Source of the DNA: Clostridia bacterium | GTDB lineage: Bacteria; Bacillota; Clostridia; UBA1381 | DNA length: 35,681 bases | Direction of reading: 5' to 3' | Assembly: GCA_017404065.1 (NCBI GenBank) | Contig: JAFRDB010000131.1 | Coordinates: forward strand, 1 to 35,681 | Shown here: in pieces, positions 20,800 through 31,178 of the stretch | Numbering within the stretch: position 1 is the first letter of the stretch | Layout: each line of letters starts with the position of its first letter | Position numbers and translations under genes: made by a program | Notes under the pieces: generated by a model | Database searches by the model: none | The model's input: the letters and a program-made list of their open reading frames with translations, nothing else | Told to the model about the DNA's origin: nothing

Positions 20800-20883
20800 A
20801 TGGCAGTGCGCATGATAACATCAATCAATCAATCAATCAATCACTCAATCAATCACTCACTCAATCAATCACTCAGAGCATAA
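20800..20883 (+). CDS. Short leader ORF carrying tetranucleotide repeats
   Basis: 27 codons, MAVRMITSINQSINHSINHS then LNQSLRA and stop. AAAGGGA sits 9 nt before the ATG. Most of it is encoded by TCAN units. In the present frame it stops at 20881-20883, before the terminator at 20916-20961. In the next frame (codons beginning at 20882) there is no stop until 21006-21008, just past the start codon of the surface gene at 21000. Removing one 4-bp unit would put the leader in that frame. Whether it is translated is not shown. It has no recognisable family; a chance ORF over low-complexity DNA is the alternative. Confidence 0.4.
   Translation: MAVRMITSINQSINHSINHSLNQSLRA
20821..20876 (+). repeat. 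Tetranucleotide array, 14 TCAN units
   Basis: The units in order are five TCAA, TCAC, two TCAA, two TCAC, two TCAA, TCAC, TCAG. The longest pure run is five TCAA plus TCA. Tetranucleotide tracts of this kind are classic slipped-strand phase-variation sites in other bacteria (for example CAAT tracts in Haemophilus). Here the TCAC interruptions would lower the slippage rate. Confidence 0.9.
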
Positions 20884-20999: not shown

Positions 21000-21938
21000 A
21001 TGAACAGTAAACTCAAAAAAGTAAGTGTCGCTCTTGCAGGTGTGCTGGCAGCTCTCTGTGTAGCGAGTTATGTGCCTGTAAACGTGGAGACAGGAGGAAT
21101 ATTTAGTGATACGTCTATTACGGCGAGCGCTGAAGATGTGCAGATCACGAGCAACGATCTTAACGAAGGCTTAGTTATAGACGCGGGTACGACAATAAAG
21201 TTCTTGATAAGGACGTTTTCCGGTTATTATCAGCCTTTTGTATTAAACATCTATTTGGATGGTGAACCTGACAAGGAAGTAGATAGTATCGAGCCTGTAG
21301 TGGATGAACCTGACCGATATTATACGACTACAAAGAAATGTAAAGTATATTCGTATGAAAACATAGGAAATACTCAGCATACTTTATATTTAAAATCCCT
21401 GCACACCGTCACATGGAAGAACGAGGACGGTACTGTTCTCAAAACAGAAGAAGCTGCGAAGGGCGACACCCCGTCTTACGGTTCGGAGCCTACCAAAGCA
21501 GAGGACGATCAGTACACCTACACCTTTGCAGGCTGGACAGACGGCACAAATACTTACGGCGTGAATGATACACTCCCCGGGGTTACTGCCGATGTGTCTT
21601 ACACTGCGCAGTTTACCGCGACCAAGAAGGTCACACCAGCGACCGTTAAAGGAGAGGTAACAAGAGTTGCAGCTAATAACGAGGGCTATAACAGTGACGG
21701 TACAAAGGACAACGGCGCAACAGCGTTCATCACAAAGCTCACAAAGAGCGGCGACGGCGAAATTACTGTCGGAAGCGTTACATGGGATATAACATCAAAC
21801 GGTGTCAACAAGGTATTCACAAAATCTATTGAGCTGCCGACTATGACATTCAGCGGTGACAGCACAGAGGTCACATTGGCATTTGTTGTAGACGGTCTGT
21901 ATGATACGGATGCAACAGTGAATGTAACGGTACAATAA
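21000..21938 (+). CDS. Secreted protein with InlB/Flg_new-type repeat and shared C-terminal domain
   Basis: 312 aa. I start at ATG 21000 (MNSKLKKVSVALAG), 7 nt after AAGGAGG, not at the upstream GTG 20946. A Sec signal peptide is clear, with probable cleavage after A44 (TASA/ED). Residues about 45-130 are of unknown fold. Residues about 138-210 (HTVTWKNEDGTVLKTEEAAK, then TYTFAGWTDGTNTYG and YTAQF) match the Listeria-Bacteroides (Flg_new) repeat found in surface proteins. Residues about 213-312 form a beta-rich domain (DNGATAFITKL, VTWDITSNG, TEVTLAFVVDGLYDTDATVNVTV) that recurs at the C-terminus of the LRR protein at 27967. There is no LPXTG, so it is probably released or held non-covalently. 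A homologous small-peptide gene follows after 14 nt. Confidence 0.75.
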   Translation: MNSKLKKVSVALAGVLAALCVASYVPVNVETGGIFSDTSITASAEDVQITSNDLNEGLVIDAGTTIKFLIRTFSGYYQPFVLNIYLDGEPDKEVDSIEPVVDEPDRYYTTTKKCKVYSYENIGNTQHTLYLKSLHTVTWKNEDGTVLKTEEAAKGDTPSYGSEPTKAEDDQYTYTFAGWTDGTNTYGVNDTLPGVTADVSYTAQFTATKKVTPATVKGEVTRVAANNEGYNSDGTKDNGATAFITKLTKSGDGEITVGSVTWDITSNGVNKVFTKSIELPTMTFSGDSTEVTLAFVVDGLYDTDATVNVTVQ

Positions 21939-21952
21939 GGAGGTAGATTGAA

Positions 21953-22120
21953 ATGAGAAAATATACAAGACCTGAATTAGTATGCAAGGTGTTCGAGAGT
22001 GAAAATATCCTTACCGCATCAGGAACGCAGACCTATGAAAGCTCCATGACAAAGTTGACAAAAGACCTTACGGATAATTACCATATATCGTCAGATTATA
22101 TCGTCAGTGATCTTTGGTAA
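21953..22120 (+). CDS. Conserved 55-aa peptide, TASGTQT family, copy 1
   Basis: 55 aa, starting MRKYTRPELVCKVFESENIL, then TASGTQT. AAGGAGG lies 8-9 nt upstream of the ATG, overlapping the end of the surface gene. There is no signal peptide. The first 27 residues align without gaps to the 56-aa peptide at 29637 (KY, PE, C, F, E and an identical TASGTQT), while the second half differs completely. A conserved first half with a variable second half is what leader/core peptide precursors look like, and the N-terminal YxxPxL resembles the motif of lasso-peptide leaders. No modifying enzyme is present in the window, so that reading is only a hypothesis. It may instead be a small regulator or partner of the secreted protein. 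Confidence 0.75.
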   Translation: MRKYTRPELVCKVFESENILTASGTQTYESSMTKLTKDLTDNYHISSDYIVSDLW

Positions 22121-24901: not shown

Positions 24902-25618
24902 TTACTCGCTTTCCCAATTATCACCCGTAGCATAATCTATTTCTATGTGCGGCTGCACGTTATAGCAGAATACGTTATAGCATATACCGTCGCCCTCATC
25001 TTCGACAGAATATGCCTCCATTTGCACGCCCCTCGCAACAAGCTCATTATCTTTAAAATACGGTGTAACTCGGTACATAACATGGTTGTCAGTCTCCTTT
25101 ATATAGTCAGATACCATATTTTCAAAGGGAAGCATAAGCGTAGCGTTCATATATCTTGTTCCGGTTATGAGATTTCGCTCGTTCGCATCCTCGCCGGAAA
25201 GCTGGTGTCCTATAAGATGGCTGCGGTTATAAAGACTGCCGCCTTCAACAAAATCATAGTGTGATGAATGCCAGCCGGTAGGCTTTATGTGGTGGATATT
25301 CCCGCGTTTTTTGGTCGGCATAAGCTCGCGGCACAGACAGGCATAAGCCGCGCCGCAGCGTCCGAGCCGGTCAAGGTCACTGTAGTATTCAAAGCCGTCT
25401 GTAGTTAGCTCTGACGGCTTAAAATCCGGTTCGTTATTATTCAGATATATAGTTGCTTCGCCGGAATAATCAGGGATATCCGAAAGGTCTTGGACGGTAT
25501 AGCTTACATTTTTCTGTTCGTATAAGGACTCCGGCAGATCAAATGATATTTCTATATCACATGCCGAAAGGGTCAGTGCTGCTGCGATTGCGGCAAGTAG
25601 TAGTCTTAATTTCTTCAT
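24902..25618 (-). CDS. Lipoprotein DNA/RNA non-specific endonuclease
   Basis: 238 aa from ATG 25618, which has GGAG 7 nt upstream (an in-frame TTG at 25624 overlaps that site). The signal peptide ends in a lipobox (LTLSAC), so the mature protein should be anchored to the membrane outside. The body is a NUC1/DNA-entry-nuclease (EndA-like) beta-beta-alpha-metal domain. It has DRLGRCGAAYACLCRELMPT, SLYNRSHLIGHQLSGEDANE with the catalytic His, the metal-ligand Asn region ERNLITGTRYMN, and NHVMYRVTPYFKDNELVARG. It should degrade extracellular DNA or RNA for nutrition, uptake or defence. It is a close paralogue of the gene immediately upstream (16-nt gap). Confidence 0.83.
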   Translation of the reverse strand: MKKLRLLLAAIAAALTLSACDIEISFDLPESLYEQKNVSYTVQDLSDIPDYSGEATIYLNNNEPDFKPSELTTDGFEYYSDLDRLGRCGAAYACLCRELMPTKKRGNIHHIKPTGWHSSHYDFVEGGSLYNRSHLIGHQLSGEDANERNLITGTRYMNATLMLPFENMVSDYIKETDNHVMYRVTPYFKDNELVARGVQMEAYSVEDEGDGICYNVFCYNVQPHIEIDYATGDNWESE

Positions 25619-25634
25619 AATCAAACTCCGTTGG

Positions 25635-26453
25635 TTATTCCGGTCTGCATAGAGGACATAAGGTTATGCCGTGTTTAACAAATTCCCATACCGCTCCTTC
25701 TGCAATTGCAATATTGGTTTCGTTTTTGCCGTCATAGCCCAAACAGCCGGTTTTGTGCAAAATGTTTTTATCTTGTTCTAAGATGAACTCGCCGTATGCG
25801 CCGCTGTTTCCGTCGGTATAGTCGATCACAACTCCCGGTTGGACGTTATAGCAGTACACGTTAAAGCAGATATCGCCGCCGTGATCCTCAAGCGACATTG
25901 CCTCCATTTCCACACCTCTTGCCACAAGCTCATTATTTTTAAAATCAGGAGTTACCCGATAGAGAACATGATTATTTGTTTCCTTCACATAATCAGCGAT
26001 CATATTTTCAAACGGCAGCATTCCCGTTATGTTCATGTATCTTGTTCCGGTTATGAGATTTAGCGTATTTGCGTCCTCGCCTGCCAGCTGATACCCTATA
26101 AGGTGGCAGCGGTTATACAGATATTTGCCGCTTACAAAGTCATATTTAACGCTGTGCCATCCGGTGGGGATGACGCTGCTTATATCGCCGCGTTCGTCCG
26201 TCGGCATAAGCTCCGTGCATATATTGGCAGTTGCTGCGTTGCAGCGTCCGAGCTCGTCAAGCGGGCTGTAATCCTCAAATACCTCATATATCACATCACC
26301 TTCCGAAACATACGGAACAGCGAAGAAGGGGATGTTATCATTTATTACAGAATACGGTTCGCCGGAATATTCCGGCGCATCCACCGCCGCTGCCGATATT
26401 GAAAAGAGCAGTAGCAGAAGCAGTGTAATGGTATACCTTATGTTGTATCTCAT
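25635..26453 (-). CDS. Secreted DNA/RNA non-specific endonuclease with Cys-rich tail
   Basis: 272 aa. The Sec signal peptide is MRYNIRYTITLLLLLLFSIS followed by AAAVDA. The nuclease domain is the same as in its neighbour: YLYNRCHLIGYQLAGEDANT with the catalytic His, LNLITGTRYMN, NHVLYRVTPDFKNNELVARG, YNVQP. It differs in having a C-terminal extension of about 50 residues with C-x(n)-CPLC (HKTGCLGYDG ... GITLCPLCRPE), the layout of the small metal-binding tails seen on surface nucleases. It is the first gene of a three-gene operon. The ribosome site is poor, so the start is less certain. Two exported nucleases in tandem suggest duplication and division of labour between membrane-bound and released forms. 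Confidence 0.83.
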   Translation of the reverse strand: MRYNIRYTITLLLLLLFSISAAAVDAPEYSGEPYSVINDNIPFFAVPYVSEGDVIYEVFEDYSPLDELGRCNAATANICTELMPTDERGDISSVIPTGWHSVKYDFVSGKYLYNRCHLIGYQLAGEDANTLNLITGTRYMNITGMLPFENMIADYVKETNNHVLYRVTPDFKNNELVARGVEMEAMSLEDHGGDICFNVYCYNVQPGVVIDYTDGNSGAYGEFILEQDKNILHKTGCLGYDGKNETNIAIAEGAVWEFVKHGITLCPLCRPE

Positions 26454-26514
26454 ATATTTTAATTTGTTTTCTTCGGTTTATTGTACTGTTTTTTCATACG
26501 TTTTTACCCTTTGT

Positions 26515-26543
26515 ATTATACTATACGGAAATAGTCATGTCAA
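26515..26543 (-). promoter_or_regulatory. Promoter of the nuclease operon
   Basis: On the minus strand, exact TTGACA (26538-26543), a 17-bp spacer and exact TATAAT (26515-26520), about 61 bp upstream of the first nuclease. Confidence 0.82.
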
Positions 26544-26588
26544 GCAATCGCTAAAAATTCTTGCTTTATAAGAAATTGCTGCAAACAG

Positions 26589-26735
26589 TGGGGTTCGGGG
26601 CGGCAGCCCCGAGCAGGCACGGGCGCAGCCCGCACACGAATCCCCCTCAAGATTGGGTGAACGACACGCTTCGCGTGTCGTAGCCCTGTTTGCTAAAAGC
26701 AAACAAGGGCGTAGCTGAGGTTAGGGGGTTAACGT
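26589..26735. repeat. GC-rich multi-hairpin element
   Basis: Gene-free, with much higher GC than its flanks. It has a branched fold: an outer GGGGTTCG (26590-26597) with CGAATCCCC (26637-26645) encloses CGGGGC/GCCCCG and GGGC/GCCC hairpins. A second unit follows with ACGACACGC / GCGTGTCGT (26661-26681) and GCCCTGTTTGCT / AGCAAACAAGGGC (26683-26710), bracketed by CCCCCTCA and TGAGGTTAGGGGG. It looks like a mobile palindromic repeat between two divergent genes. Confidence 0.5.
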
Positions 26736-26824
26736 GCTATTTATGGGACAATAGAATGTTGTCCGGGTAATTTCAGCATCATTGTGGTAAAATATAAGTA
26801 CCAAATGTGAAATGAGGTGCCACA

Positions 26825-27658
26825 ATGACGATTTCCATAGAGAAAATAGAAGAATTTAAGAGAAAGCTTATTTCTGATGAAAAATCAAAGGCAACAGCGG
26901 AGCAGTATGCCCGCCGGATAGCCGCGATGCGAAACGCTCTGGACGGACAGGAGCTGACGCGGGAAAGCGTGCTTGAATACAAGGAACTATTGAAGCAAAA
27001 ATACGCGCCGGCATCCGTTAATGCTGCAATAGCCGCGATAAACAGCTTTCTTGATTATATCGGTATGCATGAGCATAAGCTTAAAAATGTAAAAATACAG
27101 AGGAAGGTATATGCTGACAGCGGGCGGGAGCTGAAAAAGGAGGAATACAAGTCCCTGCTTGCCGCGGCAGGGGGTAAGCCAAGACTGAGTATGATACTGC
27201 AAACACTCGTTTCAACGGGTATAAGGATTTCCGAACTGAAATTTATAACGACAGAAGCGATAGAGCGCGGAATAGCTGAGATAGACTGCAAGGGCAAGCA
27301 TAGGACAGTGTTTATACCGCAAAAGCTGTGCAGGATGCTCAAAAAGTATGCCAATAAGCTGAAAATAAAGATGGGGAGTATATTTATCACCAAAAACGGC
27401 AATCCGGTAGACCGATCAAATTTGGCAAAGGAGCTGAAAAAGCTTGCCGAAGCGGCAAAGGTGGCAAAGGAAAAGGTATTCCCTCATAATTTCCGCCACC
27501 TGTTCGCAAGGATATTCTACAGCGCATATAAGGATATAGTAAGACTTTCGGATATACTCGGACATTCAAGCATAAACACAACAAGGATATACACGCGCGA
27601 AAGCGGCGAGGTGCATCGTAGGCAGATAGATGATCTGATGCGCAAGCTGGCGGTGTGA
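26825..27658 (+). CDS. Tyrosine recombinase, probable DNA invertase for the adjacent switch
   Basis: 277 aa. The N-terminal SAM-like core-binding domain spans about 5-82. The catalytic domain has every active residue: R134 (STGIRISEL), K158 (KGKHR), H221/R224 (PHNFRH), H247 (LGHSS) and nucleophile Y256. It differs from the housekeeping Xer at 3289 and resembles short invertases/integrases that flip promoters in gut bacteria. Its stop is 37 bp from a perfect 26-bp inverted repeat whose partner lies 203 bp further on, which makes it the obvious enzyme for that switch. GAGGTG is the ribosome site. Upstream (26783-26803) TGTGGTA...TACCA forms a small dyad that repeats the inner end of the inverted repeat, so the enzyme might bind its own promoter region. 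No strong promoter was seen for it. Confidence 0.88.
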   Translation: MTISIEKIEEFKRKLISDEKSKATAEQYARRIAAMRNALDGQELTRESVLEYKELLKQKYAPASVNAAIAAINSFLDYIGMHEHKLKNVKIQRKVYADSGRELKKEEYKSLLAAAGGKPRLSMILQTLVSTGIRISELKFITTEAIERGIAEIDCKGKHRTVFIPQKLCRMLKKYANKLKIKMGSIFITKNGNPVDRSNLAKELKKLAEAAKVAKEKVFPHNFRHLFARIFYSAYKDIVRLSDILGHSSINTTRIYTRESGEVHRRQIDDLMRKLAV

Positions 27659-27695
27659 GGTAAAATTTTATGATGAAAATGCGGAATTGAAGAAA

Positions 27696-27721
27696 TACCC
27701 TATAATTCATATTATGTGGTA
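27696..27721. repeat. Left inverted repeat of the switch (IRL)
   Basis: 26 bp, beginning TACCCTATAA and ending TATTATGTGGTA. It is the exact reverse complement of 27925-27950. Within it, two imperfect arms ACCCTATAAT and ATTATGTGGT (both ACC..ATAAT when read inward) flank a 4-bp centre TCAT. This is the normal design of a tyrosine-recombinase core site. Confidence 0.95.
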
Positions 27722-27743
27722 ATATTTTATTTTCACAATATAT

Positions 27744-27772
27744 ATTTTACATAAAAAACAAGTAGTTGTCAA
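27744..27772 (-). promoter_or_regulatory. Promoter inside the invertible segment, pointing away from the LRR gene
   Basis: On the minus strand TTGACA (27767-27772), a 17-bp spacer and TAAAAT (27744-27749). In this orientation its transcript would leave through IRL and run antisense into the 3' end of the recombinase gene. Confidence 0.82.
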
Positions 27773-27819
27773 TAGAAAAAATGTAAAATTAATAAAAAAA
27801 CAAATTTATGCATACACTC

Positions 27820-27880
27820 AAGACCTATGAATGGGATAATTTTCTTAGGTCTGTTTATTGTGTTTTAATTTTTTACAATT
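27820..27880 (+). terminator. Terminator-like hairpin within the invertible segment
   Basis: AGACCTA (27821-27827) pairs with TAGGTCT (27846-27852), with three further pairs inside. It is followed by GTTTATTGTGTTTTAATTTTTT. T-rich sequence follows only on the plus strand, so it would stop read-through toward the LRR gene in the present orientation and not after inversion. Confidence 0.5.
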
Positions 27881-27966
27881 CAAGATTAGATTTCATATAT
27901 CGGCGCATATCATGCTCTGATATATACCACATAATATGAATTATAGGGTAAAGAAGGAGGACAAAA

Positions 27967-29622
27967 ATGTTTAACAAAACAAAAGCAAAACTGAGTGCGA
28001 TGCTGTCGACAGTGATGCTGCTGACAATGGCTGCCCCTTTGGCAATGCCTACGGCAGTAAGCGCGGAGAGCGTAAAGGAGGGCTGTCTGACATTTGATAC
28101 GGACACCGGAATGATAACCCGTTGTGATACAAGCGCAAGCGGCGAGCTTGTGATACCAAGCGTGATAGAGGGAGTGACAGTAAAATCTATAGGAAATTAT
28201 GCATTTCGAGATTGCAAAAATATAACAAGTGTTAGTGTTCCGGATAGTGTTACATCTATCGGTGATTATGCATTTGGGTCTTGCAACAGCTTAACAAGCA
28301 TAAATATTCCGGATGGAGTTACATCTATCAGTATGGGAGTATTTAGCGATTGCGGGAGTTTAACCAATATTATAGTTCCAAAAGGTGTAACATCTATTAT
28401 GGGTTGGGCATTTCATAAATGTAGCTGCTTAACAAGCATAAATATTCCGCATGGTGTTACATCCATTAATAAGTGCGCATTTAGTAAATGCGGCAGCTTA
28501 GCCAATGTGAATATTCCGAGTAGCGTAACAACTATCGGAGATATGGCATTTATGGATTGTGGCAGCTTAACAAATATAAATATTCCCAATAGCGTTACGT
28601 CTATCGGAGAATATGCATTTAATGGCTGCAGCAGTTTAGCCAGTGTTAATATTCCAAACAATGTTACATTTATCAGCAATTCCGCATTTGGGTCGTGTAG
28701 CAGCTTAACAAGCATAAATCTTCCGAATAGTGTTACATCTATCGGAAGTAGCGCATTTTTAGGTTGTAGCAATTTAACAAGCATAAATATTCCGAGTAGT
28801 GTAACAACTATCGGAAGCGGCGCATTTAATAACTGCAGCAGCTTAGCCAGTGTTAATATTCCGAGTAGCGTAACAACTATCGGCACTTATGTATTCGGGT
28901 ATTGCAACAGCTTAACAGAGATAACAATTCCCAATAGCGTTACGTCTATCGGAGAATATGCATTTTTGGAGTGTAGTAGCTTAACCAGAATTAATGTATC
29001 AAGTGCTAACAAAGAGTATGCCACTAAAGATGGTGTTTTATTTTCTAAAGATATGACTATACTGGTTTGTTATCCTGCAGGTAAGATAGGCGCATATATA
29101 ATTCCGAACAGTGTAACCGCTATAGGATATGGGGCATTTCGGCGCTGCAATAATTTAACAAGCATAACTATACCCGGCAGTATTACTCGGATAGGAGAAA
29201 AGGCACTTATCAGCTGTAGCAGGTTAACAAGCATAAAATATGCCGGTACGAGAGAGCAGTGGTCAAATGTCACAAAGGGCAGCAGCTGGAACTCTAACTG
29301 TCCGGCTACGGTATATGTATTAGACACAACCGAGGTTTCAACACCTTCAACCGCGACCTATGCCGACAATTCCGCAAAGGACGGCGGCGCAACGGGCTTT
29401 AAGGTTGAGCTTGCGGCGGATGATGAAGCGCTGGAGCTTGGCGATATTGTATGGACAGTTACAAGCGGCGGCGAAACACGCAAAACTGAAGGGCTTTCAT
29501 ATAATGTAGGCGTTATATCAGGACCTGTTTTAATAGGACTTGTTATAACCGGACTATATGATGAAAATGCCACAGCAGCAGCGACGTATGGAAAAACAGG
29601 ATATGTTGAATATATAGAATAA
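27967..29622 (+). CDS. Secreted BspA-type leucine-rich repeat protein
   Basis: 551 aa. The Sec signal peptide has likely cleavage after A33 (VSA/ES). Residues about 60-430 are some sixteen 23-residue LRR_5 (BspA/Treponema pallidum-type) repeats with the consensus LTSINIPNSVTSIGEYAFNGC. An insert at about 340-375 (the stretch reading ATKDGVLFSKDMTILVCYPAG) is the usual break in such proteins. Residues about 455-551 (DNSAKDGGATGFKVELAADD, DIVWTVTSGG, LIGLVITGLYDENATAAATYG) match the C-terminal domain of the secreted protein at 21000. BspA-type proteins are surface adhesins that bind host matrix or other bacteria; here that is inferred. There is no LPXTG. AAGGAGG (27954-27960) is just outside the right inverted repeat, so expression should depend on the orientation of the switch. 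Confidence 0.9.
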   Translation: MFNKTKAKLSAMLSTVMLLTMAAPLAMPTAVSAESVKEGCLTFDTDTGMITRCDTSASGELVIPSVIEGVTVKSIGNYAFRDCKNITSVSVPDSVTSIGDYAFGSCNSLTSINIPDGVTSISMGVFSDCGSLTNIIVPKGVTSIMGWAFHKCSCLTSINIPHGVTSINKCAFSKCGSLANVNIPSSVTTIGDMAFMDCGSLTNINIPNSVTSIGEYAFNGCSSLASVNIPNNVTFISNSAFGSCSSLTSINLPNSVTSIGSSAFLGCSNLTSINIPSSVTTIGSGAFNNCSSLASVNIPSSVTTIGTYVFGYCNSLTEITIPNSVTSIGEYAFLECSSLTRINVSSANKEYATKDGVLFSKDMTILVCYPAGKIGAYIIPNSVTAIGYGAFRRCNNLTSITIPGSITRIGEKALISCSRLTSIKYAGTREQWSNVTKGSSWNSNCPATVYVLDTTEVSTPSTATYADNSAKDGGATGFKVELAADDEALELGDIVWTVTSGGETRKTEGLSYNVGVISGPVLIGLVITGLYDENATAAATYGKTGYVEYIE

Positions 29623-29636
29623 GGAGGAGATCGAAC

Positions 29637-29807
29637 ATGAACAAATACAGCACACCGGAAATGCTTTGCCGCAAATTCAAGGCGGAGGATGTTATAACCG
29701 CATCCGGCACACAGACAAGTGCAGAAACTGTCAAGAATATAATGAAAAGTGATGGTGTAAATAATGTAAAAACCACCGCATGGGACGAAATGACCGAACT
29801 TTTCTGA
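29637..29807 (+). CDS. Conserved 56-aa peptide, TASGTQT family, copy 2
   Basis: 56 aa, starting MNKYSTPEMLCRKFKAEDVI, then TASGTQT, then a divergent half ending WDEMTELF. AAGGAGGAG lies 7-8 nt before the ATG, and the gene begins 14 nt after the LRR stop. Both the spacing and the order repeat the cassette at 21000-22120. Shared residues with copy 1 include K3, Y4, P7, E8, C11, F14, E17 and TASGTQT (21-27). No signal peptide and no Cys in the variable half. It would be co-expressed with the LRR protein and hence under the switch. Function unknown. Confidence 0.75.
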   Translation: MNKYSTPEMLCRKFKAEDVITASGTQTSAETVKNIMKSDGVNNVKTTAWDEMTELF

Positions 29808-29900
29808 CGATACAAACAGCAAGACCCTTTATATACATGTCCTATGTGTAAGATGTGATCACTAAGTAAACATTATCAAAATATCACAAAAGGGGATGTA

Positions 29901-29990
29901 TTAAAATGAAGGTGCATAACAACCGGTTTTCAGCCGATTGCTATGCGCCTTTTTTGATATGCTTATGTTGGAGATATAAACTTCAGTTAA
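29901..29990 (+). repeat. Interspersed hairpin repeat, copy A (terminator-like)
   Basis: AAGGTGCATA (29909-29918) pairs with TATGCGCCTT (29942-29951), followed by TTTTTGATAT. The whole block up to GGAGATATAAACTTCAGTT is closely matched, in reverse orientation, by 34160-34247. Here it would end the LRR-peptide transcript. A 40-codon frame from ATG 29906 (MKVHNNRFSADCYAPF) runs through it, but its frame is broken after YAPF in the other copy, so I treat it as repeat DNA. The rest of the gap to 30181 has only a 34-codon frame (29991-30095) with no recognisable features. Confidence 0.7.
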
Positions 29991-30181
29991 ATGAGAAGGA
30001 TGATATTTGCTGCAACATTATCCGATAGCATATATCCGCGATATGTTGCGGTGGATGATACTAAGATTGATTTAGAAGATGTTGTTCAATTATGAGAACG
30101 TAATAAGTGATCAGCAACCATAAAATCTGATCGGATTTACTTAGCGAGCGGTAATTCTATTGAAAATAAGATCAAAAGCGA

Positions 30182-30210
30182 TTGACAATAAAAATAGGAT
30201 ATGTTAGAAT
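30182..30210 (+). promoter_or_regulatory. Promoter of the DUF3791-DUF3990 operon
   Basis: TTGACA (30182-30187), a 17-bp spacer and TAGAAT (30205-30210), 23 bp upstream of the first start, with AAGGAGGGG between. Confidence 0.78.
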
Positions 30211-30233
30211 AAGCTTTAAGGAGGGGTGCCGCT

Positions 30234-30452
30234 ATGATAAATAATTATGAAAGTGATTATGCTGTTGTATGTGTAAATTCATTTGCAAAAAGAAAAGGCT
30301 TGAATTATAAAGAGGCGTATTTATATTTATATAATCATAAAGGCTTGGATTTCCTGAAAGAATTCTATGATATAGAACATACATTATCGATAGATGACGC
30401 GATTCATGATTTAACAGCAATATGCAGAAATAACGGTGGTGAAATAACATGA
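30234..30452 (+). CDS. DUF3791 family protein, probable antitoxin/partner
   Basis: 72 aa. The helical DUF3791 pattern is plain: VVCVNSFAKRKGLNYKEAYLYLYNHKGLDFLKEFYDIEHTLSIDDA, then a short tail ending CRNNGG. Members usually lie beside a DUF3990 gene, as here, where the stop overlaps the DUF3990 start by 4 nt. I infer that it is the neutralising partner of the downstream protein; the biochemistry is not established to my knowledge. Excellent ribosome site and its own promoter. Confidence 0.75.
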   Translation: MINNYESDYAVVCVNSFAKRKGLNYKEAYLYLYNHKGLDFLKEFYDIEHTLSIDDAIHDLTAICRNNGGEIT

Positions 30453-30952
30453 TATTGTTTCATGGTTCAAATACTGATATTAATGATATAGATTTAAATA
30501 TGTGCAGACCATTTAAGGATTTCGGTCGAGGCTTTTATCTAACAACTATAAAGGAACAAGCTGTAAATATGGCTAAGAGGGTGTCACGGATTTATGGCGG
30601 TGATCCTATGGTAAATATTTTTGAGTTTAATATAGAGTCAGCATATGGTATGAATATAAAAGAATTCAGTCAAACGTCTGCTGAATGGGCGATATTCGTT
30701 ATGAACAACAGGAGCAGGGGTTTTACCGATAATGACAGCGATGCTTGTAACAATGATTCAAAGTATGATATAGTAATAGGACCTGTAGCGGATGATGGAC
30801 TTACTGCTTTAATTGAGACATATGCTCATGGTTTAGCTGATATTGAAAAAATCGTCAGTAAAATGAGATATAAAAATGTTTCCGATCAATATTCATTTCA
30901 TACGGAAAGAGCAGTAAGGTTATTAAAAAAGGTGGGTGTTGAAAATGTCTGA
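30449..30952 (+). CDS. DUF3990 protein, ADP-ribosyltransferase-like
   Basis: 167 aa. It starts MILFHGSNTDI, with H5-G-S. This is followed by DFGRGFYLTTIKEQAVNMAKR with Y30, and SFHTERAVRLLKK near the end with E153. Together these resemble the His-Tyr-Glu layout of diphtheria-toxin-type ADP-ribosyltransferases, the superfamily DUF3990 is usually placed in. It is sandwiched by overlap between two small ORFs, the typical layout of a toxin with antitoxins. No signal peptide, so an intracellular target is likely. The ART assignment is by motif; the substrate is unknown. Confidence 0.72.
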   Translation: MILFHGSNTDINDIDLNMCRPFKDFGRGFYLTTIKEQAVNMAKRVSRIYGGDPMVNIFEFNIESAYGMNIKEFSQTSAEWAIFVMNNRSRGFTDNDSDACNNDSKYDIVIGPVADDGLTALIETYAHGLADIEKIVSKMRYKNVSDQYSFHTERAVRLLKKVGVENV

Positions 30953-31178
30953 AAGTCAGCAAATGCTTATGGAGCTCGCTATTCAAGATATCATAAAATA
31001 CATTATGAATGATCACAATGTTGACTGGACTGAGGCTATGCGCAGGTTTTATGTTTCGGACACTATGGAAAAGCTTTCTGATGCAGACACGGGTTTGTAT
31101 AGAGAATCCTCTGCTTATGTATATGATTTATATAAAAATGAAGCCCATAATGGCAGAATAATTCAAAACGAAATTTAA
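30945..31178 (+). CDS. Small helical protein, third gene of the DUF3990 module
   Basis: 77 aa from ATG 30945, which overlaps the DUF3990 stop by 8 nt. A GTG at 30936 is possible but has no better ribosome site. The acidic helical sequence reads LMELAIQDIIKYIMNDHNVDWTEAM, then SDTMEKLSDADTGLYRESSAYVYDLYKNE. It resembles small proteins that accompany DUF3990/DUF3791 genes. I infer a second partner or antitoxin; no firm family assignment. A terminator follows directly. Confidence 0.6.
   Translation: MSESQQMLMELAIQDIIKYIMNDHNVDWTEAMRRFYVSDTMEKLSDADTGLYRESSAYVYDLYKNEAHNGRIIQNEI

Follow-up and report, generated by a model that had tools for sequence, protein, structure and literature searches.

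The fimE gene of Escherichia coli lies directly upstream of fimS, the invertible element of type 1 fimbriae. In that system, as described in PMC9993118, a tyrosine recombinase inverts a short segment that holds the promoter of a surface-structure operon; fimS also contains a terminator that affects the fimE message, and the OFF state is favored when both recombinases are made. Here we describe a predicted switch of similar layout in a 35,681-nucleotide stretch of DNA from a Clostridia bacterium (contig JAFRDB010000131.1 of assembly GCA_017404065.1, hereafter the window), in which a tyrosine recombinase gene is followed by a 203-bp segment between inverted repeats and then by an operon for a leucine-rich repeat (LRR) protein and a 56-amino-acid peptide.

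Inverton sets of the PhaseFinder type have reportedly been assembled for gut bacteria by Jiang et al. in 2019. Inverton groups 139 and 125, as described in PMC11892184, come mostly from Firmicutes_A and have unpublished repeat motifs, with tyrosine recombinases enriched near group 139. In Clostridioides difficile, the RecV switches, including cwpV, are described as inversions made by a tyrosine recombinase ahead of genes for surface products or motility (PMC5903667, PMC2784873, PMC7446863); there one recombinase serves distant sites, and in the strain described only Cdi7 has a recombinase nearby (PMC5903667). PsrA of streptococci is reported to drive hsdS inversions (PMC4948785, PMC11709252), and phase variation of BspA-type LRR surface proteins has been inferred from metagenome reads for Candidatus Mycoplasma girerdii (PMC5476646).

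The window locus resembles fim in having a segment that bears a promoter and a terminator-like element, with a recombinase gene upstream and a surface-protein operon downstream. It differs from fim in that its repeats are 26 bp long rather than 9 bp, a single 277-amino-acid recombinase with a SAM-like N-terminal domain takes the place of two smaller recombinases, a hairpin takes that of a Rho-dependent terminator, and no fimbriae are involved. Like gut invertons, it has a promoter between inverted repeats, near genes for a surface product and an invertase (PMC11892184); its ACATAAT site can be set beside groups 139 and 125 by the description of those groups, not by motif comparison. With the RecV switches it shares a clostridial tyrosine recombinase and a predicted inversion upstream of a surface gene, whereas here each repeat pair has a neighboring recombinase and no orphan matched pair was seen in the same genome. 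The phase variation described for Ca. Mycoplasma girerdii proceeds through dinucleotide-repeat frameshifts (PMC5476646), in contrast to the inversion predicted here. As an inverton with a layout like that of fim, the switch belongs to a known kind, here in a self-contained Clostridia variant.

Architecture of the window cassette

The recombinase likely inverts the adjoining 203-bp segment and in this way links or unlinks the sole strong predicted promoter and the LRR-peptide operon, forming a self-contained switch. The features are as follows.

26825-27658, + strand: tyrosine recombinase, predicted invertase of the adjoining repeats (277 amino acids; PF00589 and PF02899; aligns to XerA structures)
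27696-27721, unstranded: left inverted repeat, containing the predicted recombination site CTATAAT-TCAT-ATTATGT
27722-27924, unstranded: predicted invertible segment, 203 bp (alignable inner sequences in both orientations among relatives)
27744-27772, - strand: promoter TTGACA-17-TAAAAT (consensus match 11/12), directed at the recombinase
27821-27852, unstranded: terminator-like hairpin AGACCTA...TAGGTCT, within the predicted invertible segment
27925-27950, unstranded: right inverted repeat, 26 nt, perfect partner of the left arm
27955-27960, + strand: ribosome-binding site AGGAGG, beyond the right repeat and so external to the segment
27967-29622, + strand: BspA-type LRR protein, 551 amino acids (PF13306; predicted signal peptide; LRR_5 repeats; C-terminal domain)
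29380-29619, + strand: shared C-terminal domain, about 80 amino acids, common to most proteins preceding peptides (modeled as all-beta with low confidence)
29637-29807, + strand: 56-amino-acid peptide with a conserved N-terminal KYxxPxMxxxxFxxEDVITASG, a variable remainder and an aromatic end

A search of positions 26000-30500 returned the 26-nt pair as the longest perfect inverted repeat (100% identity, 203-nt spacing), the second-longest being 13 nt. As in invertons, the segment is short, intergenic, flanked by inverted repeats and upstream of a gene. The recombinase gene lies directly upstream (its open reading frame (ORF) ends 37 bp before the left repeat) and the operon directly downstream (16 bp separate the right arm from the LRR start codon), as in a fim-type layout. 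An earlier sequence-only reading of this DNA had proposed the same repeats, which the search bears out to the base. It had also proposed a tyrosine recombinase with its full catalytic set 37 bp upstream, a near-consensus promoter pointing away from the LRR gene, and a ribosome site just beyond the right repeat, where AGGAGG is found; the recombinase and promoter are likewise recovered by the analyses below.

The recombinase has a Phage_integrase domain (PF00589, E = 2.5e-24) in addition to the SAM-like domain (PF02899). R134, H221, R224, H247 and Y256 align with XerA-type proteins and a lysine is present in a KGKHR stretch; these residues together we take to be the catalytic set. The best models for the protein are XerA, XerC and XerD, all below their cut-offs. 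The NCBI invertase models PRK09870 and PRK09871 score far under cut-off (E of 2e-4 and 6e-3), such that a search with these two models does not place the protein among the small FimB/FimE-type recombinases. It would work like fim, yet it is not filed as fim. The closest named invertase encountered is PsrA, with 33% identity across 86% of the query, and PsrA sits on a very long branch of the recombinase tree.

The promoter inside the segment, identified by consensus match, extends from 27772 to 27744 on the minus strand and is the only strong one. Inversion would mirror it to 27874-27902 on the plus strand, ending about 65 bp ahead of the LRR start codon. Two further promoter-like sites score 9/12, giving three sites in total against a shuffle mean of 2.3.

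Cassettes elsewhere in the genome and among relatives

When up to three mismatches are allowed, the 26-bp site occurs in the 3.06-Mb genome only in the window and on one other contig, C58, and is paired in both places. The C58 copy, which differs by three mismatches, belongs to a complete paralogous module with a recombinase 75% identical to that of the window, 26-bp repeats, a 12/12 promoter, a hairpin, a 706-amino-acid LRR protein and a peptide. Four further recombinases of this genome are 48-54% identical (contigs C17, C27, C41 and C94); three of these (C27, C41, C94) have shorter paired sites 131 bp apart, and the arms at C17 are decayed. Exact matches to the core ACATAAT-nnnn-ATTATGT are confined to recombinase cassettes, so no orphan targets are seen. 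With one mismatch there is one extra copy, which is unpaired, and with up to two mismatches there are 50 forward matches compared with 27 in the control. We rejected a trans-acting invertase with orphan sites, as inspection by eye revealed no new matched pair in this genome at up to two mismatches. A distant recombinase that serves several sites, as in the RecV/cwpV type, was likewise not found in this genome.

We compared 55 distinct recombinase loci (six from this genome, 40 from a named genome set and nine further ones of the genus), after dropping L075, which is identical to L020, and keeping in the count 12 loci that lack a repeat pair. Paired repeats are present at 43 of the 55, and 42 of these 43 contain the core with up to three mismatches; L040 has paired repeats of another kind, and the decayed arms of L063 (C17) were paired by eye. 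In 38/43, no more than 60 bp separate the repeats from the end of the recombinase match. Promoters scoring at least 11/12 are found in 29 of the 43 elements: 19 elements have them directed at the recombinase, 8 at the downstream gene and 2 at both. Such promoters occur in 22 of the 35 inner sequences tested first, although only 0.72 are expected from dinucleotide shuffles. The distance from the -10 element to the faced arm is 19-45 bp for gene-facing promoters (n = 10), and 21-47 bp for 17 of the 21 that face the recombinase, with three others at 4 bp and one at 89 bp. Inside 24/43 elements there is a G+C-containing hairpin stem, frequently AGACC...GGTCT (3.9 expected, in this case from simple shuffles), and T-rich hairpin flanks are apparent by eye in several. 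The 4-nt site centers, of which there are 28 different ones, are reverse-complementary in all 42 elements with two core sites (2.6% expected for a match between loci), an agreement that is largely built in because 41 of the 42 were chosen as perfect repeats.

Evidence for the proposed inversion

Both orientations are found in related sequences. When inner sequences are aligned end to end, the better orientation is the one predicted from the promoters in 19/19 pairs, eight of which are inverted. Agreement persists when promoters are masked (17/17, four inverted) and when both promoters and hairpins are masked (13/13, three inverted), the best case being L032 (OFF) with L037 (ON) at a z of 6.8. 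These pairs are those above the score limits used, and they share members and so are not independent. On a maximum-likelihood tree of the 55 recombinases, the nine ON rows require nine changes, the maximum possible among labeled rows; thus orientation is not inherited. L020, the sister of the window pair on this tree, is ON. Inversion is the reading that best fits these comparisons. The sequence-only reading had called the operon phase-variable and OFF in this DNA, a view that gains support from the comparative promoter directions, the inner alignments and the recombinase tree.

Several observations weigh against this interpretation. Every cassette of the window's own genome with a callable promoter is OFF (5/5), and the two orientations were compared across species and paralogues, not within one population. 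Paired sites are missing from 12/55 loci (a 12-nt pair at L053 was left uncounted, and L026, L027, L033 and L049 lie less than 90 bp from a contig end), and 14/43 elements, L054-L057 among them, lack a promoter by the 11/12 test. Short local BLAST matches between inner sequences follow the direction of the promoters in just 19 of 26 pairs. Six of the seven disagreeing matches overlap the palindromic hairpin, which is alignable either way; that between L020 and L037 does not, by the test used. The matches of L024 (ON) to L029 and L080 (OFF) are strong with promoters masked and are lost once hairpins are masked too. The cassettes on C27 and C94 share the center TCTG and the window center recurs in L030, so centers do not separate all cassettes. 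In the window itself, a weak 9/12 site on the plus strand (27687-27715) overlaps the left arm and is directed at the LRR gene, which is a caveat to a strictly OFF state. A strict terminator scan fails to list the hairpin at 27821-27852, and its terminator function is therefore a presumption. Finally, any damping of the recombinase by antisense RNA, considered below, is a conjecture drawn by analogy with fim.

Some of these observations would also be expected if the repeats were a site for recombinase binding or for integration at which recombination has stopped at this locus, leaving a relic frozen in the OFF state. The uniform OFF state within this genome, the decayed arms on C17 and the single sites behind the recombinases of L036 and L045 are consistent with this. 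Nonetheless, the window arms are perfect over 26 bp, the recombinase reading frame is open with its catalytic residues present, and the C58 paralogue retains the layout with a different matched center. As perfect arms should decay when recombination ceases, we consider a frozen relic unlikely.

Alternatively, the segment might invert chiefly to exert antisense control over the recombinase, with the LRR operon mostly under other signals. The 19/29 promoters that face the recombinase are in line with such a role. However, the gene-facing state is common (8/29), gene-facing promoters lie 19-45 bp from the arm, and the gap from arm to LRR start codon is just 16 bp, which makes this explanation highly improbable. 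Least probable of all is a phage integrase with its attachment site beside an incidental LRR operon: PHROGs does label the recombinase an integrase and the four more distant cassettes of this genome adjoin phage-like genes (C27, C94 and C41, and C17 by likeness), but those four form a clade separate from the window and C58 (support 100/100), the latter two share the entire module including the peptide, several relatives precede surface-protein genes, and two tblastn scans of IMG/VR found no relative, although near records may be left out.

Proposed mechanism

In the self-contained switch that we favor, the recombinase (26825-27658) would flip the 203-bp segment between the 26-bp repeats. The orientation read here would leave the operon OFF, because the promoter is directed at the recombinase and the terminator-like hairpin separates the recombinase from the LRR gene. 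Inversion would bring the promoter to about 65 bp from the LRR start codon, with its end at 27902, and would leave the repeat inside the leader. In either state, the hairpin could shield the downstream gene from transcription that reads through from the recombinase gene. The recombinase would act chiefly on its own repeat pair, since the 4-nt center is matched within the pair and mostly different between cassettes. The same promoter would, in the OFF state, read into the recombinase gene in antisense; the resulting RNA could damp the recombinase and favor OFF, in the spirit of the coupling between fimS and fimE. Such fim-like feedback could explain the excess of OFF cassettes, but 19 versus 8 is weak evidence. 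The output would be a secreted or surface LRR protein and its companion peptide in only some cells of the population, and we infer a phase-variable surface system.

Several cassettes depart from the simple arrangement. Strong promoter matches are present on both strands of the inner sequences of L058 and L079, and these segments might drive the downstream gene in either state. L036 and L045 have one site copy behind the recombinase, followed by an ORF (LRR-like in L036), and are possible remnants of locked switches. Extra site copies in direct repeat are found in L021 (7117/7150), L037 (7078/7112), L083 (4235/4276), L081 (6368/6401 and 6799/6832) and L159 (6106/6158); nested inversions or small excisions are possible consequences. 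The contigs of L033 and L027 stop in or just past the left arm, and that of L026 just past two site copies. Contigs that end at an arm, as those of L027 and L033 do, may hint at mixed populations or assemblies.

The four phage-linked cassettes (L060 on C27, L061 on C41, L062 on C94 and L063 on C17) belong to a single clade, and in the three whose promoter can be called it is directed at the recombinase. The C27 cassette precedes a PHROG 408 protein, that on C94 a DUF2800/exonuclease (PHROG 69) protein and that on C41 a sigma-factor-like gene, and the C17 cassette precedes look-alikes of the C27 and C94 phage genes, assigned by likeness. Possibly, these four are invertible promoters of phage genes.

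The putatively switched genes and a peptide family linked to a C-terminal domain

The LRR protein of the window matches PF13306 with E = 1.3e-166 (546 bits against a cut-off of 27.7), as expected of a BspA-type (LRR_5) protein. Its gene contains 69-nt repeats, and a crude test detects a signal peptide. We predict a secreted BspA-type protein, for which an adhesin role is assumed. Among 16 proteins scanned from downstream of cassettes there are SLH-domain proteins, a pilin, TetR regulators before secreted proteins, a diguanylate cyclase and a SLOG-type protein. LRR proteins lie downstream in the window, C58 and L084, with a weaker match at L061 and another behind the single site of L036. The family peptide lies downstream in the window, L064 and L025 (all three of which are in the profile used), in L076 and, weakly, in L042.

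This unnamed peptide family, about 50-70 amino acids long, is mostly encoded right behind predicted secreted proteins with a common C-terminal domain. A four-peptide profile yields 106 matches in 15/16 genomes of the genus at E of at most 0.1, of which 21 are in the window's own genome. A wider profile finds the peptide in 39/70 genomes of the family (E of at most 0.001) and in 11/196 of the class (E of at most 1e-5), four of these 11 in the same family. Among the 25 best matches in the stretches compared, which came from this genome and others, 23 start at most 25 nt from where an upstream ORF ends. The window peptide itself has no match in Pfam or PHROGs and one chance-level match in NCBIfam (E of 0.04). 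Against a large protein set, the peptide alone finds two proteins, of which one is nearly the query itself (98% identity), and the peptide alignment finds 60, which are without Pfam domains and are called hypothetical or left unnamed.

We examined 22 upstream proteins, a set that excludes the second copy of L119 as well as L025, L115 and L122. Compared with a profile built from the other proteins, the last 80 residues outscore every one of 300 shuffles in 19 of the 22; in L121 the matching piece lies further inside the protein, and two fail. By the crude test, 20/22 have a signal peptide, and both failures lie less than 350 bp from a contig end. Searched back into the window's own genome, the domain profile gives 16 matches, 11 of which are in the model by construction. 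Among the other five, that on C73 has a peptide about 0.85 kb away, and those on C86, C95, C100 and C125 have no peptide match. The domain profile meets 12 of the 21 peptide sites of this genome, and no domain match was obtained for the remaining nine (C34, C9 twice, C4, C105 twice, C17, C41 and C7). Thus, the pairing is common without being universal, and neither part is always seen with the other.

Across the 22 peptides, mean pairwise identity is 33% over the first 24 residues and 9% over the last 25, yet 17 of them end in F, W or Y. Peptide similarity and domain similarity are correlated (Mantel r of 0.55, 0/5000 permutations), which fits co-duplication as well as contact. The C-terminal region of the LRR protein gave 460 candidates in the large protein set, none at E of 0.001 or below. 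Modeled from two sequences, the domain is all-beta with a mean predicted local distance difference test score (pLDDT) of 62; Foldseek finds no match at E of 0.001 or below, and in view of both results we claim no fold. We found no support for export by a C39 ATP-binding cassette transporter of double-glycine-type peptides: PF03412 (C39) is present in 26/70 family genomes and is missing from G014 and G015, which have 26 and 23 peptide matches, although these genomes are possibly incomplete.

A second member of the domain-peptide family lies in the window behind a different kind of repeat.

20820-20875, unstranded: (ATCA)14 tandem repeat, about 125 bp upstream of the second domain/peptide pair
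21000-21938, + strand: predicted secreted protein with the same C-terminal domain (ORF listed from 20946; ATG with ribosome site at 21000)
21953-22120, + strand: second family peptide, also with TASGTQT

A near relative of this pair, on contig C37 of G014, has a 44-nt CATA repeat at a like place upstream. The (ATCA)n tract is possibly a second phase-variation device, which would act by repeat length. We consider it conceivable, if somewhat short of probable, that the promoter inverter and the tetranucleotide tract are two, at least, of the devices that phase-vary single members of one undescribed two-gene surface system, made up of a secreted protein that ends in a shared beta-type domain and a co-transcribed peptide of 50-60 amino acids. 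The peptides in such a system would start with a conserved, leader-like stretch, continue through a hypervariable body and end in an aromatic residue.

Neighboring features

Upstream of both LRR-linked recombinases, the window (26740-26800) and L064 (240-300) have in common a stretch around CAATAGAATGTTGTCCGGG, part of which is a dyad, so that it is possibly a control site. The LRR-peptide operon is directly followed, at positions 30234-31178, by three overlapping small ORFs, including one for a DUF3990 protein, in a layout that recalls toxin-antitoxin genes. On the minus strand at 24902-26453 there are two neighboring, similar-looking endonuclease-type ORFs, with Endonuclea_NS_2 confirmed for 24902-25624 only.

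Discussion

Among the matches listed in our literature searches, titles and the beginnings of abstracts contain no inverton before an LRR protein and nothing recognizable as the peptide family, and neither "leucine-rich" nor "LRR" occurs in the main text of PMC11892184. The sequence-only reading had held that an inverton paired with an LRR protein and a TASGTQT peptide was not known to have been described. For the switch this was overstated, given the Firmicutes_A invertons described in PMC11892184 and the phase-variable BspA-like LRR proteins reported in PMC5476646; for the peptide it was understated, as there is a large domain-linked family. It is the domain-peptide family, with its putative function, that could be of a new kind.

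A compact switch consisting of recombinase, matched sites, hairpin and promoter recurs before varied surface genes of uncultured gut Clostridia and before phage-like genes. Because of this recurrence it is recognizable from sequence, and its predicted ON or OFF state can be read from assemblies. Bench tests may be feasible, because the cassette is present in records that are labeled Monoglobus pectinilyticus and Subdoligranulum variabile strains. The study of the cassette has also brought to light domain-peptide pairs as a large family that has no name; in the window, two of its members sit behind two unrelated candidate phase-variation devices. If the two-gene surface system is real, individual cells could each display a surface set of their own, given that some genomes have 20 or more such peptides, and the peptide could be the private partner of its domain, as an anchor, a chaperone or a released signal. 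The role of the peptide is now a concrete question.

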